Assembly: GCA_016937995.1 (NCBI GenBank)
Contig: JAFGVM010000096.1
Span: forward strand, 1 to 12,047
DNA length: 12,047 nt
DNA from: Candidatus Delongbacteria bacterium
Lineage (GTDB): Bacteria; UBA4055
Reading direction: 5' to 3'
Position numbers and translations under genes: made by a program. Under the pieces are notes generated by a model that saw only the letters and a program-made list of their open reading frames with translations, did no database searches and was not told the DNA's origin. Within the stretch, counting starts at the first letter, position 1. The number at the start of each line of letters is the position of its first letter. Of the stretch, positions 3,894 through 9,707 are shown piece after piece.

Positions 3894-3993
3894 ATTTAAG
3901 TCAAGACATAATAGGAAAAAAGTATCCAAAATTTATTTTGCATAACTGATAAATGATATGGTATTCCACCTTTATTTTTTTTATATTAAAAAT

Positions 3994-4440
3994 ATGAAAA
4001 AAAACGTTAGAAATATTTCAAGAATATACAAGCCTGAGATTAACTCTGAAGTAGTACTGCCCCTTTACACTGAAAAACTTTCTGCAGGATTCCCTTCCCC
4101 AGCCAATGATTACATTGACAGAGGACTTGATCTGAACGAACTGCTTATAAAAAATCCATCTGCAACTTTCTATGTTGAGATAGAAGGTGAGTCCATGATA
4201 AATGCAGGCATAAATTCAGGAGACATTCTTGTTGTTGACAGATCACTGGAAGCAAAGCATGGAACTATAATAGTAGCAATACTTGATGGAGAATTCACAG
4301 TAAAGAGACTTTACTGGAAGGGAAAAACCGTAAAGCTTTTGGCGGAAAACCCGAACTATAAACCTATTATTATCACTGATGAGATGGATTTTGAAATATG
4401 GGGTGTTGCGACAACAGTGATACATAGAATAAAAACGTAG
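3994..4440 (+). CDS. umuD: UmuD-type LexA-like self-cleaving peptidase (S24)
   Basis: About 148 aa from the ATG at 3994. An in-frame ATG at 3958 would add 12 hydrophobic residues without family counterpart, so I prefer 3994. Neither start has a clear ribosome site. UmuD is cut by RecA-stimulated autoproteolysis to UmuD', which joins UmuC as DNA polymerase V for lesion bypass. The sequence matches UmuD along its length. The cleavage site is Ala-Gly in KLSAGFPSPANDY (E. coli has Cys-Gly). The nucleophile Ser67 lies in EGESM and the general base Lys104 in FTVKRL. Their 37-residue spacing equals that of E. coli Ser60/Lys97. The end, FEIWGVATTVIHRIKT, is typical. It heads a plus-strand set with the SRAP gene and umuC. 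Confidence 0.93.
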   Translation: MKKNVRNISRIYKPEINSEVVLPLYTEKLSAGFPSPANDYIDRGLDLNELLIKNPSATFYVEIEGESMINAGINSGDILVVDRSLEAKHGTIIVAILDGEFTVKRLYWKGKTVKLLAENPNYKPIIITDEMDFEIWGVATTVIHRIKT

Positions 4441-4444
4441 TTGC

Positions 4445-4507
4445 AATTACCCAAATGGCACCGTCTGGGGAGTAGCAACTGCGGTGATACATAAACTGAA
4501 TAAATAA
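4445..4507 (+). pseudogene. Relic of the C-terminus of a second umuD
   Basis: Directly after the umuD stop, in another frame, 20 codons read NYPNGTVWGVATAVIHKLNK and then TAA. The part VWGVATAVIHKLNK is clearly homologous to the end of the intact UmuD (IWGVATTVIHRIKT). The DNA has diverged considerably, so this is not a recent duplication. It has no start codon of its own. It is best read as the surviving tail of a resident umuD that was replaced or deleted. Confidence 0.75.
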
Positions 4508-4516
4508 AGGAAAATT

Positions 4517-5173
4517 ATGTGTGGAAGATTTGCTCAAATATATGATGACTCTGCTTTGAAGCAGGAGTTTCAGTTAGAAGATATCAGGGAAAATATTACA
4601 AATAGATTTAATATTTCACCTGGGATGGAAGTTAATACTATCATCGGGGTATCAGATAAAAATTCGTTTGTAAAACAACATTGGGGTATTAACAGTATTC
4701 ACGGCCGTGAACTGGATAATCTTGTATTCAATACAAGATCGGATACATTTATAAAAGACAGGTTCGGCAAACATTTTCATAAGACCCGTTGTATCATACC
4801 TGTCAGTGGATTTTTCGAATGGAATAATAAACAACCTTATTTTGTAAAGAGTTTAAAAAATGACATTCTTTCTTTAGCAGGTGTTTTTATTCTGGATAGA
4901 AGGACCAATGAGTATTCCTGCTCAGTTATGACCGTAAATTCTATCGGGCAACTCTCAAATATCCATGAAAGAATGCCGTTGATACTTTCCGGCTATGATA
5001 AAATCAAGTGGCTGAATAATTCAAGATCAGATGTATCCGATCTTGAAAATATTTGTTTAAAAAGGATCGATACTACTGAGTTGGATATATTCAGAGTTAC
5101 CGACAGGGTTAATTCTTTACTGCATGATTCTCCCCAGTGTATTGAAAAATTAAATGAAAATTCTTTGCTCTAA
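4517..5173 (+). CDS. yedK: SRAP-domain abasic-site processing protein (YedK/HMCES family)
   Basis: The 218-aa protein is a single SRAP domain (SOS-response-associated peptidase), which crosslinks covalently to abasic sites in single-stranded DNA and shields them. All hallmark residues are visible: catalytic Cys2 exposed after removal of Met1 in MCGRFAQ, NTRSDT with Asn72 and Arg74, RCIIPVSGFFEW with Glu101, and MTVNSIGQLSNIHERMPLIL with His150. The numbering matches E. coli YedK (Cys2, Asn75, Glu105, His160). The ATG has a good AAGGA at 4507-4511. The gene sits between umuD and umuC on the same strand, which fits the known genomic link of SRAP with SOS polymerases. The symbol follows E. coli usage. 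Confidence 0.94.
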   Translation: MCGRFAQIYDDSALKQEFQLEDIRENITNRFNISPGMEVNTIIGVSDKNSFVKQHWGINSIHGRELDNLVFNTRSDTFIKDRFGKHFHKTRCIIPVSGFFEWNNKQPYFVKSLKNDILSLAGVFILDRRTNEYSCSVMTVNSIGQLSNIHERMPLILSGYDKIKWLNNSRSDVSDLENICLKRIDTTELDIFRVTDRVNSLLHDSPQCIEKLNENSLL

Positions 5174-5182
5174 TATCACTTA

Positions 5183-5201
5183 AAGGTCACTATTTGACCT
5201 T
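5183..5201 (+). terminator. Hairpin after the SRAP gene
   Basis: A perfect 7-bp stem, AAGGTCA (5183-5189) with TGACCTT (5195-5201), has a 5-nt loop and lies 10 nt after the stop codon. No uninterrupted T run follows (ATGAGTTATTTAT), so it may be an inefficient terminator or a processing/stability hairpin between the SRAP gene and umuC. Confidence 0.4.
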
Positions 5202-5220
5202 ATGAGTTATTTATATTAAA

Positions 5221-5241
5221 AGTCAGAAATTAGAACTTAAA
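5221..5241. repeat. 7-bp repeat tract upstream of R2 copy 2
   Basis: Degenerate heptamers AGTCAGA, AATTAGA and ACTTAAA directly abut R2 copy 2. The tract is on the same side of R2 as at copy 1, so tract and hairpin repeat may travel together. Confidence 0.6.
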
Positions 5242-5297
5242 AAATTATCCCAACGGGATATAACCCCAATAACCACAGGTTTCAACCTGCGGGGAAA
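5242..5297 (+). repeat. Dispersed double-hairpin repeat R2, copy 2
   Basis: A small hairpin ATCCC-AAC-GGGAT (5247-5259), the linker TATAACCCCAATAA, and a strong hairpin CCACAGGT-TTCA-ACCTGCGG (5273-5292, one A-C mismatch) are followed by GGAAAA. It is almost identical to copy 1 near mutS but inverted relative to it on the map. Each copy points the same way towards its downstream repair gene. The two copies bracket kdsD, umuD and the SRAP gene. Confidence 0.75.
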
Positions 5298-5331
5298 AAT
5301 GCACTGAGCCTACCGAAGTGTGAGAGATAAA

Positions 5332-6603
5332 ATGAAAAAAGAACATGATAAAATATTTGCATTGATCGACTGCAACAGTTTTTATGCATCCTGTGAAAGG
5401 ATTTTCAGACCTGACCTGAGAGATAAACCTGTGGCCATTCTTTCCAACAATGACGGCTGTGTTGTCGCTTTAACAAAGGAAGCAAAAGAACTAGGTGTTA
5501 CCAGAGGTGAGCCATATTTTAAGATAGATCCTGAAATAAGAAAAAATCTTTCCGTTTTTTCATCGAACTATTCAATGTACGGTGATATCAGCCACAGAGT
5601 AATGAACATACTTTCAGAGTTCTCTCCTGAGACAGAAATCTACTCTATTGATGAAAGCTTCCTTGATCTTACAGGCATGAATATTGATCTTGCCGAGTAT
5701 GGAAATACAATAAGAAAAAAGGTAAAATGGTCAACCGGAATACCGGTATCAGTAGGCATCGGTAAAACAAAGACACTGGCAAAACTGGCTAATCATATCG
5801 CTAAAAAACTTGATAGATTCAACGGTGTTCTTGATCTGTCATCTGAAAAAGACATTGATAAGTATCTGGCAATGGTAAAAGTCAGCAGTATCTGGGGTGT
5901 CGGCAGAAAACTTTCCATGAAACTTGAAAGGCAGAATATCATCACTGCCAAAGATCTTAAATACACCTCAGACGGATGGATACAGAGAAATCTCGGAGGA
6001 GTGACCGGTATGAGAACGGTCTGGGAACTCAGAGGTATTTCCTGCATTCCTCTTGACTCTGTTCCAGCTACGAACAAAGGGATCGTAAGCTCCCGTTCTT
6101 TCGGTAAACCTATTGAAACTCTCATTGGCTTGAAAGAGGCCGTATCTTCGTATATTTCCATTGGTGCTCAGAAACTAAGAAAACAGAAAACTGCGGCATC
6201 TGCGGTAACAGTATTTATCAACACGAACCGTTTTAAAGATGAACCTCAGTATAACAATGGAATAACATATAAAACCCCCTACCCTACCTCTTCGACAATA
6301 GAGTTGACAGAATATGCTCTTAACCTGCTGGAAAGAATATATAAGGATGGCTATAAATATAAGAAAGCAGGTATCATGCTTGACGGTATTGTTCCCAATA
6401 ATGCTATTCAATACAGCCTTTTCACTCCTGAAAAATTCAGTGCTGATATTGATATTACTATGGATGCTGTAAATAAAAAATGGGGACGGAATACTCTTTT
6501 TACAGCCAGCTCAGGCATCAACCAAAAATGGTCAATGAGAAGAGAATTCGTATCTCCGAGATATACCACCAGCTGGGATGATATCTTGAAAATTAGAATT
6601 TAG
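5332..6603 (+). CDS. umuC: UmuC, catalytic subunit of DNA polymerase V (Y family)
   Basis: From the ATG at 5332 the protein is 423 aa (E. coli UmuC 422). A GTG at 5320 would add four residues, but the ATG puts the IDCNSFYASCERIF motif at the usual distance. With UmuD' it copies past lesions in DNA. Catalytic metal ligands are Asp13 in LIDCNSFYASC and Asp107-Glu108 in YSIDESFLDLTG. SNNDGCVVALTKEAK marks the fingers. The little-finger region follows, and the C-terminal DUF4113 (GIVPNNAIQYSLF to KWSMRREFVSPRYTTSWDDILKI) is complete. The last codons (KIRI, stop) lie inside a heptamer repeat tract. It lies 158 nt after the SRAP gene, with a hairpin and an R2 repeat between, so it may be transcribed separately. 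Confidence 0.97.
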   Translation: MKKEHDKIFALIDCNSFYASCERIFRPDLRDKPVAILSNNDGCVVALTKEAKELGVTRGEPYFKIDPEIRKNLSVFSSNYSMYGDISHRVMNILSEFSPETEIYSIDESFLDLTGMNIDLAEYGNTIRKKVKWSTGIPVSVGIGKTKTLAKLANHIAKKLDRFNGVLDLSSEKDIDKYLAMVKVSSIWGVGRKLSMKLERQNIITAKDLKYTSDGWIQRNLGGVTGMRTVWELRGISCIPLDSVPATNKGIVSSRSFGKPIETLIGLKEAVSSYISIGAQKLRKQKTAASAVTVFINTNRFKDEPQYNNGITYKTPYPTSSTIELTEYALNLLERIYKDGYKYKKAGIMLDGIVPNNAIQYSLFTPEKFSADIDITMDAVNKKWGRNTLFTASSGINQKWSMRREFVSPRYTTSWDDILKIRI

Positions 6604-6628: not shown

Positions 6629-6670
6629 TACGATATTTTATCCAAAAGTTTAAAAAAATAATCTTTTGAC

Positions 6671-6840
6671 TTACTTTCCCAGACTGTCAAGGATCTATAC
6701 AATTTATTCTCCCCGTGAAACCGACGATCCACATCACGGGGAAACCTGCGACACTGCTATAAACCAGCAGTCACTTAGGGGCAAGAACTTGGATCGTCTT
6801 GATTTTGGTCCCGATCAATCGGGATCATCAAGGAAAGTAA
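6671..6840 (+). ncRNA. Pseudoknot-forming dispersed element, copy A
   Basis: About 170 nt, with copies B and C elsewhere in the window. The outer arms TTACTTTCC (6671-6679) and GGAAAGTAA (6832-6840) pair. P1 is CCCCGTGA (6711-6718) with TCACGGGG (6734-6741). The P1 loop contains GACGATCCA (6723-6731), which pairs with TGGATCGTC (6790-6798) as P2, giving an H-type pseudoknot. The 48-nt linker (6742-6789) is conserved among copies. In this copy it also holds a local hairpin ACTGCT/AGCAGT (6753-6758 with 6766-6771). A 3' stem CTTGAT/ATCAAG (6798-6803 with 6827-6832) encloses TCCCGA-TCAA-TCGGGA. It lies between umuC and the converging 323-aa gene. Function, transcribed strand and family are unknown to me, and it may act as RNA or as folded single-stranded DNA. 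Confidence 0.6.
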
Positions 6841-6870
6841 CGTAAAAAAAATTATAATAAAACGTATTAA

Positions 6871-6897: not shown

Positions 6898-7869
6898 TTA
6901 GCTCTCCAACTTTAATTCAAATCTACAGCGATCATCTCCTTTAAGTGGGGATTCCAATAGTTTGATCTCAAGATCCATACCGAGCATATTATCAAATGCG
7001 TTCTTTGTAAATCCGGCACTGCAATAACACCAGTTCTCATTTACTTCATTGTTTCCTTTTAACAGAGAATCTCTGACGAACTGACAGTGACAGGCATAAT
7101 ATTTTCTTTCTTCTGGAGTTCTGGCATTCAGATAATTTTCTATATCATAAGGGATCTTAGTAACATACAATTTATTTCCATCTCTTACAGCTGAAAGTAT
7201 TTCCTGGTCAGCTTTCACATAATCAACTACTTCCTGAGTGATCCTCTGCTCGAACCAGACTATATCGTTATCACAGTGATACTGCAATTCAGCCACCTTA
7301 CGATCATGAAGTTCTTTGAGAAAAGTATCTAGATCCGATGCTTTTTTATAATTTTCATGCTCTTTTGCAAAAGCTTCCTTCGGAATATTATGGTTATTTC
7401 CTATAAGAACTTTTTGGTATTTATCCTCAGGAAGTACTTTGGTAAGCCTGTTCATAAGATCTTTGGTGAATTCAGGATATGCGGATAGAGGTGATCCAAG
7501 CGGAATATCTGGAAGATCTCCGAATATTTTTTCAGAAGTATTCTCACCAACTACCTTTATAGCTCTCTTTTTAATGTTTTCAATTACACCAACACCACCG
7601 AGAATGGTAGTAAAATAAATATAGATATCATTCTTTTTCAGAAGATAGAAATATCTCGCTATTGCAAGAATATTATCAATAGAATTATCACCCTGCTCTA
7701 TAAGCATTTTCACATATTTTTTGATATCACTGACCTCTGCTGAAACTGTATCTTTATTTATTTCCTGTAGGTATTTTTCCAGTTTTTCAATATCTCTGAG
7801 GGCCTGTTCGATCTGCTGCTCATCATAATTCCTCTGCTGATAAAGTTCCTTTAATTTTTCCTTACTCAT
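6898..7869 (-). CDS. Uncharacterised protein with a V4R-like Cys-motif C-terminal domain
   Basis: The 323-aa protein has no signal peptide, so it is probably cytosolic. The first 50 residues are charged and helical, likely a coiled coil (ELYQQRNYDEQQIEQALRDIEKLEKYLQEI). The middle is not recognised. The C-terminus carries Cys260-His-Cys262 (ACHCQFVRDSLL), Cys281-Tyr-Cys283 (NENWCYCSAGF) and LESPLKGDDRCRFEL with Cys315. The CYCSAG...LLESPLKGDDRCRF pattern resembles the V4R / methanogen-output / ATC-hydrolase-like ligand-binding fold, where such cysteines bind metal or ligand. That assignment is inference from motif style. The start has a strong AGGAG (7874-7879 region) about 5 nt upstream. It converges on umuC and is followed by R5 and element copy A. 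Confidence 0.85.
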   Translation of the reverse strand: MSKEKLKELYQQRNYDEQQIEQALRDIEKLEKYLQEINKDTVSAEVSDIKKYVKMLIEQGDNSIDNILAIARYFYLLKKNDIYIYFTTILGGVGVIENIKKRAIKVVGENTSEKIFGDLPDIPLGSPLSAYPEFTKDLMNRLTKVLPEDKYQKVLIGNNHNIPKEAFAKEHENYKKASDLDTFLKELHDRKVAELQYHCDNDIVWFEQRITQEVVDYVKADQEILSAVRDGNKLYVTKIPYDIENYLNARTPEERKYYACHCQFVRDSLLKGNNEVNENWCYCSAGFTKNAFDNMLGMDLEIKLLESPLKGDDRCRFELKLES

Positions 7870-8010: not shown

Positions 8011-8024
8011 GCATCTTTTGAATC

Positions 8025-8192
8025 ACTTTCCCAGACAGATAAGGAACTTACAAATTATATTCCCCGTGAAAAACCGACGATCCATCATCACGGGGAAACC
8101 TACGACACTGCTATAAAGTACTGATAACTAAGGGGTAAAAACATGGATCGTCTTGATTTTGGTCCCGATCAATCGGGATCATCAAGGAAAGT
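8025..8192 (+). ncRNA. Pseudoknot-forming dispersed element, copy B
   Basis: Same plan as copy A. The outer arms ACTTTCC (8025-8031) and GGAAAGT (8186-8192) pair. P1 is CCCCGTGA (8062-8069) with TCACGGGG (8088-8095). P2 is GACGATCCAT (8076-8085) with ATGGATCGTC (8143-8152), 10 bp. The linker 8096-8142 is 47 nt. The 3' stem CTTGAT/ATCAAG (8152-8157 with 8181-8186) encloses TCCCGA-TCAA-TCGGGA. The 3' half from P2 onward is almost identical to copy A, whereas the linker is closer to copy C. The A-only hairpin in the linker is absent. It follows the 3' side of the propeller lipoprotein gene. Confidence 0.6.
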
Positions 8193-8207
8193 AACGTAAA
8201 AAAACAT

Positions 8208-9537: not shown

Positions 9538-9707
9538 AACTTTCCAGATTGATAAGGATCTTTCCAAATTATCCTCTCCATCCATCATCGGCAGTTCAAC
9601 AGGATGGAGAAACCTGCGATACTGCTATAAAGTACTGATCACTAAGAGGTTAAAACTTGAACTGCCTAGCACTTTTTGTTACTTTTTGCTGCAATGGGAA
9701 AAAGTAA
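9538..9707 (+). ncRNA. Pseudoknot-forming dispersed element, copy C (covarying stems)
   Basis: Same architecture as A and B, but both main stems have new bases with pairing kept. P1 is CTCCATCC (9576-9583) with GGATGGAG (9602-9609). P2 is GGCAGTTCAA (9590-9599) with TTGAACTGCC (9657-9666). The two bases between the P2 5' arm and the P1 3' arm are CA, as in A and B. The 47-nt linker (9610-9656) is nearly identical to that of B. The 3' hairpin is replaced by TTACTTTTT (9679-9687) pairing with AAAAAGTAA (9699-9707). The 5' flank ACTTTCC-AGA-AAGGATCT is conserved. It lies on the 3' side of the 81-aa gene. Confidence 0.6.

Follow-up and report, generated by a model that had tools for sequence, protein, structure and literature searches.

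Comparative analysis of an intergenic element from a Candidatus Delongbacteria bacterium provides strong support for an H-type pseudoknot, in which two crossing helices, P1 and P2, have been kept by compensatory change. The window (the whole stretch of DNA analysed, 12,047 nt) is one complete contig (G000:C48) of the 2.75 Mb source genome, G000, and carries three copies of the element, A, B and C, all on the + strand. Copy C occupies positions 9538–9707. Its P1 helix of 8 bp is formed by the 5′ arm CTCCATCC (9576–9583) and the 3′ arm GGATGGAG (9602–9609), and its P2 helix of 10 bp by GGCAGTTCAA (9590–9599) and TTGAACTGCC (9657–9666), with a CA junction at 9600–9601 and a linker at 9610–9656 that constitutes loop 3 of the pseudoknot and has a conserved core, GATACTGCTATAAA, in the 15-copy alignment. 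The arms lie exactly where the first-pass annotation had placed them, and 18 of 18 pairs are Watson–Crick. Immediately downstream is the P3 5′ strand AGCA (9668–9671), whose partner TGCT (9687–9690) sits in the loop of the P4 hairpin TTACTTTTT...AAAAAGTAA (9679–9707).

Across 15 full genomic copies, 95.5 % of P1/P2 cells were paired, compared with 81.3 % when the letters of the 3′ arms were shuffled, and 46 cells carried double changes, compared with 15.2 after shuffling; none of 500 shuffles matched either the observed pairing or the observed double changes (covariation score). Double changes were found at 10 of the 18 pairs, non-Watson–Crick pairs accounted for 8 of 270 cells, and pairing fell to 41–53 % when the arms were offset by one base. 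Covariation was also supported in a smaller set of eight copies. Kinship among the copies was handled with a tree built from unpaired columns, on which we counted 29 left-arm changes, 23 right-arm changes and 30 changes of pair state, yielding ~22 joint changes, a figure to be read as approximate, given the weak support of the tree (a star on 1 of 12 inner branches) and possible recombination between copies. As crossing helices maintained by compensation indicate a real fold, the first-pass proposal of a genuine pseudoknot is borne out by the covariation in 15 copies, by the joint changes on the tree and by a second subfamily that has the same fold with other stems. It had also named many copies with only one P2 arm changed as evidence that would speak against it; single mismatches were present in just a few copies (L032, L035, L038, L046 and L050). 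Beyond the core helices, an extension of P1, termed P0, was confined to some of the copies and was set aside, and L050 and L051 contain extra hairpins in loop 1 or loop 2. An additional pairing between a G-run in the linker and a C-run in P1 appeared to covary by eye and was rejected as permutations did not support it (own partners 4.29, permuted 4.14).

Copy A spans 6661–6850, from the 5′ end ATCTTTTGACTTAC to the 3′ end GAAAGTAACGTAAAAAAA, these being the limits of its homology to copy B (8013–8204). The two share the P1 5′ arm CCCCGTGA (A, 6711–6718 with 3′ arm 6734–6741; B, 8062–8069 with 3′ arm 8088–8095), whilst the P2 5′ arm is GACGATCCA in A (6723–6731; 3′ arm 6790–6798) and GACGATCCAT in B (8076–8085; 3′ arm ATGGATCGTC, 8143–8152), making P2 9 bp (A) or 10 bp (B) long rather than the 8 bp originally ascribed to both. 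In A, at 6798–6832, P3 (CTTGAT/ATCAAG) is arranged around a TCCCGATCAATCGGGA palindrome that replaces the 5′ strand of P4. The ends of copy A form imperfect inverted repeats (TTTTGACTTACTTTCC/GGAAAGTAACGTAAAA, 13 of 16 positions matching), which are seen in B also and are weaker in other copies. When copy C is compared with A and B every difference is compensated, as had been noted; the accompanying statement that nearly all pairs differ was overdrawn, with 8 of 18 doing so in register (4 of 8 in P1, 4 of 10 in P2). The impression of a barely changed linker was correct (B and C are ~89 % identical there), and in almost every copy nothing but CA separates P2 from the P1 3′ arm.

Of the helices of the element, P2 varies most and exists in about eight types, including GACGATCCAA, GGCAATCCAA, GGCAATTCAA, GGCAGTTCAA and GGCAAATCAA, each with its own complement. 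The P2 of copy C is four single-pair steps away from that of A and B, and because the intermediates GGCAATCCAA, GGCAATTCAA and GGCAAATCAA occur in other copies, each with a matching arm, this helix changed stepwise and not by the whole-arm exchange initially envisaged. Copy C belongs, without special features, to a single sequence subfamily in which the stems drifted pair by pair. Within element hairpins we also observed a palindrome, TCCCGATNNATCGGGA, at 6809–6824 and 8163–8178 of the window and in L249, L165, L156, L195 and L051; in L249 it splits the P2 5′ arm, and it is frequent on its own elsewhere in the genome. Between A and B lies a gene of unknown function (6898–7869) with a weak match to DUF6144. 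It is missing at the syntenic place in sister species G002, which has an unrelated 851-aa gene there, metalloprotease-like by eye.

The element as a whole is a repeat of ~170–230 bp dispersed in intergenic DNA, with about 14 copies or fragments in the source genome and 3 and 6 or more in its two genus mates. Subfamily 2 (seven copies, alignment A5) has the same architecture, linker core GATACTGCTATAAA and P4, together with wholly different P1/P2 stems (CCTCTTAC/GTAAGAGG with GTCTGCCATT/AATGGCAGAC), and its loop 1 contains a long hairpin; one member instead combines CCCCTTAC/GTAAGGGG with another P2, GGCAATCATA/TATGATTGCC. A third family (L182:17041–17240, L190:466–653, L201:1052–1232, L248:7559–7740, L150:10235–10422 and L101:959–1163) has a different, highly conserved interior (CTGTTGTGTAAAAACTAC) and a long outer stem. 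The 5′ end ATCTTTTGACTTAC is common to subfamilies 1 and 3, and the 3′ P3/P4 module to all three. Copy B is an apparent chimera, its linker grouping with one subfamily and its stems with the other. Both ends of contig G000:C18 (L004 and L005) break off within the element at one and the same point, where it reaches the P2 5′ arm, and their first ~85 bases are identical, a sign that element copies break the assembly.

Outside this genus, neither the remaining 10 genomes of the phylum, which comprises 13 in the collection, nor 373 further bacteria (383 in total) gave a match, in searches that scored a small number of candidates in each genome and from which divergent copies could escape. Whole-element searches of viral, phage and plasmid sequence likewise returned nothing, and pattern matches in Lachnospiraceae, Sporosarcina, Pseudomonadales and Ruminococcaceae were discarded as chance. 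A structure-only pseudoknot scan of 1.4 Mb gave 20 matches, the same number as its reversed control, and hence no new subfamilies. We found no published description of the element in a literature search confined mostly to journals available without subscription.

The 3′ module has a wider range. The P3 strand sits directly 3′ of P2 and is complementary to the loop of the P4 hairpin, the pairs including CTTGAT/ATCAAG, CTTGAA/TTCAAG, TTGAC/GTCAA, GAC/GTC, GGC/GCC and AGCA/TGCT. A copy's own P3 and loop formed 5.0 bp compared with 3.8 bp for permuted partners, a value reached in 0 of 5000 permutations of 24 copies, whose related sequences inflate the result. The loop leaves just 0–3 bases to bridge P3, so that the two helices may be unable to form completely at once. 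Querying with the third family retrieved a Pasteurella multocida record that matches over 38 bases and, onward from there, matches in Caballeronia, Paraburkholderia and Chitinibacter plasmids, whilst a pattern scan identified similar P3/P4 modules in viral contigs. Outside the phylum the P3/loop pairs read CGGGC/GCCCG, TTCGCC/GGCGAA, GTGGC/GCCAC, TGTA/TACA and GCTGC/GCAGC, and again 0 of 5000 permutations reached the observed fit (15 cases). Furthermore, the L1 spacer is a pyrimidine run that follows the P4 purine strand (Spearman 0.89), with parallel L1/P4 runs of 5.9 compared with 4.8 when permuted (0 of 5000). In six asymmetric T4CT3 cases L1 suits a parallel (triplex) reading better than an antiparallel one, whereas in two Delongbacteria groups the antiparallel reading is better by one base; from these sequence patterns, it is possible that L1 and P4 would form a major-groove triplex. 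The Pasteurella, Caballeronia and other bacterial modules differ from the Delongbacteria elements in their upstream parts, so that the likeness need not reflect descent from a common ancestor. We tentatively suggest, as something rather improbable, that these elements make up a class of mobile structured RNA, so far without a name, that extends across phyla (Delongbacteria, Pasteurella, Burkholderiaceae) and viral contigs, and in which the shared 3′ pseudoknot would be the handle for the copying machinery. Such a module would make the question of mobility testable in culturable hosts, e.g. Caballeronia. In P. multocida (NZ_CP020346.1; L254:1130–1552) we also noted intergenic repeats with strong folding (z-score −7) in the vicinity of dapF and xerC; the second of these ends in a P3/P4 module.

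At three orthologous sites (those of copy C, of C9 at hisS, and of C81, at an ABC-F gene) the intergenic region of the sister genomes is short and lacks the element, and the copies are thus lineage-specific insertions. Their flanks are diverged and full of other repeats, so that element ends and target duplications are not exact. No autonomous partner element was found, and no mobilizing enzyme could be linked to the element. A RAYT partner was rejected, as the single Y1 transposase/RAYT gene of the genome sits amid a different repeat, namely GGTCGTCCC...GGGACTT palindromes (L029, 1860–1970, G000:C56) that are likely a REP pair unrelated to the element. A search of the two sister genomes, both incomplete, did not find a reverse transcriptase. 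All three genomes encode several integron-integrase-like tyrosine recombinases of ~280–370 aa that score just below NCBIfam cut-offs (L222, L224, L225, L227, L229 and L230, on contigs C78, C43 and C16 of G000, C23 and C110 of G002 and C146 of G001); these too were dismissed as partners, there being no copy within 1.5 kb of a tyrosine recombinase. Most of these genes are closely trailed by attC-like palindromes, e.g. CAGGCACAAACTGGACAGCAAAACGCCATATGGCGTTTTGCCGCACGTTAG, with similar sites at L211 and L215.

With regard to the strand, G·U pairs on the + strand outnumber A·C pairs by 13 to 5 over all helices (one-sided P=0.048), an excess to which the hairpin in loop 1 of subfamily 2 contributes most and which is weakened by shared ancestry; for P1/P2 alone the two are about equal. 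The counts lean towards a + strand RNA as the molecule that would fold, an assignment that is weakly supported. Scans for promoters and terminators yielded no excess over shuffled sequence. Elsewhere in the window, a different and abundant intergenic repeat, CCACAGGTTTCAACCTG, is present as inverted copies at 2705–2773 and 5241–5309; the sister genomes contain dozens of copies of it. Additionally, genes for a peptidase S24 (LexA/UmuD-like), an SRAP protein and a Y-family polymerase stand in a row at 3958–6603, forming an SOS-type cluster, and a tandem array of the heptamer AAGTCAG runs from 11961 to the contig end at 12047.

The explanation we favour, with confidence barely above even, is that the element is a mobile repeat of non-autonomous, MITE-like type and that trans-acting machinery recognizes its folded strand, probably RNA. 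A short repeat of this type would spread through intergenic DNA carrying the P1/P2 pseudoknot, followed by the P4 hairpin with its loop paired back to P3, and the fold, adopted most likely by a + strand transcript (alternatively by single-stranded DNA), would be the recognition handle of a mobilizing enzyme acting in trans, such that only folding copies would be copied onward. If the fold is indeed a mobility handle, it points to a mobilizing enzyme not yet recognized.

What mobility alone leaves unexplained is the good pairing of resident copies: for the 36 stem sites ~83 changes would be expected on terminal branches at the unpaired rate, and with just 8 of 270 pairs in the 15 copies departing from Watson–Crick the stems there are paired far better than this predicts. 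Such pairing would suit a structured RNA that is present in many copies and serves the host, possibly a trans-acting small RNA or a UTR element acting on stability or expression, with selection on each resident copy and dispersal only secondary. We consider this, the main rival, possible but unlikely. In its tandem pseudoknot and conserved single-stranded linker the element resembles ligand- or protein-binding RNA, and several copies lie between two genes of the same direction; at the same time, the copies are lineage-specific, none of the three sites tested is conserved between species, and the neighbouring genes are unrelated and in either orientation, convergent intergenic spaces included, with 25 of 38 flanking genes on the other strand from the element (a count that does not settle its strand). 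Nor was there an Rfam match at or above the gathering cut-off among 4227 families.

Considerably less probable is that the stems are perfected at the DNA level, with template switching or gene conversion correcting inverted repeats in the absence of selection on the fold. The scarcity of wobble intermediates in subfamily 1 (1 G·U in 270 cells), the seeming existence of chimeric copies such as B and a possibly rearranged arm in copy L041 would accord with this mechanism, but it would not preserve lengths, order and linker, and here two crossing helices of constant length covary together with P3 and P4 in an architecture that recurs with unrelated stem sequences. An integron-like recombination site, prompted by A and B flanking a single gene in direct orientation like attC, by the absence of that gene at the syntenic place of the sister species and by the integrase-like recombinases of all three genomes, is already largely refuted and highly improbable, as the integrase genes have their own attC-like palindromes 3′, which are different sequences from the element, no element lies near them and the pseudoknot is not the attC fold. 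Equally hard to credit is the earlier idea of P2 as an address, guide or self/non-self tag matched to target sites, which drew on the variability of this helix, since P2 10-mers and 8-mers showed no excess outside elements in 1.39 Mb (half of the source genome), both arms are occupied in a near-perfect intramolecular helix and the variation in subfamily 1 is stepwise rather than modular.

Dispersed structured repeats are common in bacteria, and for few of them is there comparative proof that the conserved feature is a pseudoknot and not just a hairpin. A conserved pseudoknot is not a requirement of MITEs; the element is like them in being short, non-coding and dispersed, with lineage-specific insertions and with imperfect terminal inverted repeats visible in A and B and weaker in other copies, and unlike them in that no parent transposase was found and no target-site duplication defined. 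Among RNAs, SAM-II, preQ1-II and telomerase RNA have H-type pseudoknots in which loop 3 is long; the element shares this feature, their P1/P2 topology and short loop 1, and L1 of its P3/P4 module may form a pyrimidine major-groove triplex with P4; in contrast to them, it is multi-copy, tied to no gene and has no known ligand. In HDV-like folds P1 begins at the cleavage site and P3 lies between P2 and the P1 3′ arm; here conserved sequence precedes P1, only CA occupies that position and Rfam gave no match, and a ribozyme of this type was rejected. HEARO/omega RNA had no Rfam match either, and by Pfam the genes of the window are not IscB/TnpB nucleases. As with REP sequences, which are mobilized by RAYTs (PMC2817692, PMC3733652), the element is a dispersed intergenic repeat with palindromic character, but its fold is much longer and pseudoknotted, and the sole RAYT of the genome is flanked by another palindrome. 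Structured, repeated intergenic stem-loop families have been described in many bacteria, including the Pam-1 family of Pasteurella (Petrillo et al., 2008; PMC2267715), a likeness by description in which no pseudoknot is mentioned. The bcr1–bcr18 repeats of the Bacillus cereus group are intergenic, 100–400 bp in length, confined to one bacterial group and present as several families per genome, some being MITE-like and mobile-looking and some having conserved RNA secondary structure (PMC3446304, PMC6542083). They carry a TTTAT motif, no tandem pseudoknot is described for them in these reports and no sequence relation to them is expected; by description, however, the element is like them in size, intergenic place, restriction to one group, MITE-like appearance, conserved secondary structure and existence as several families.
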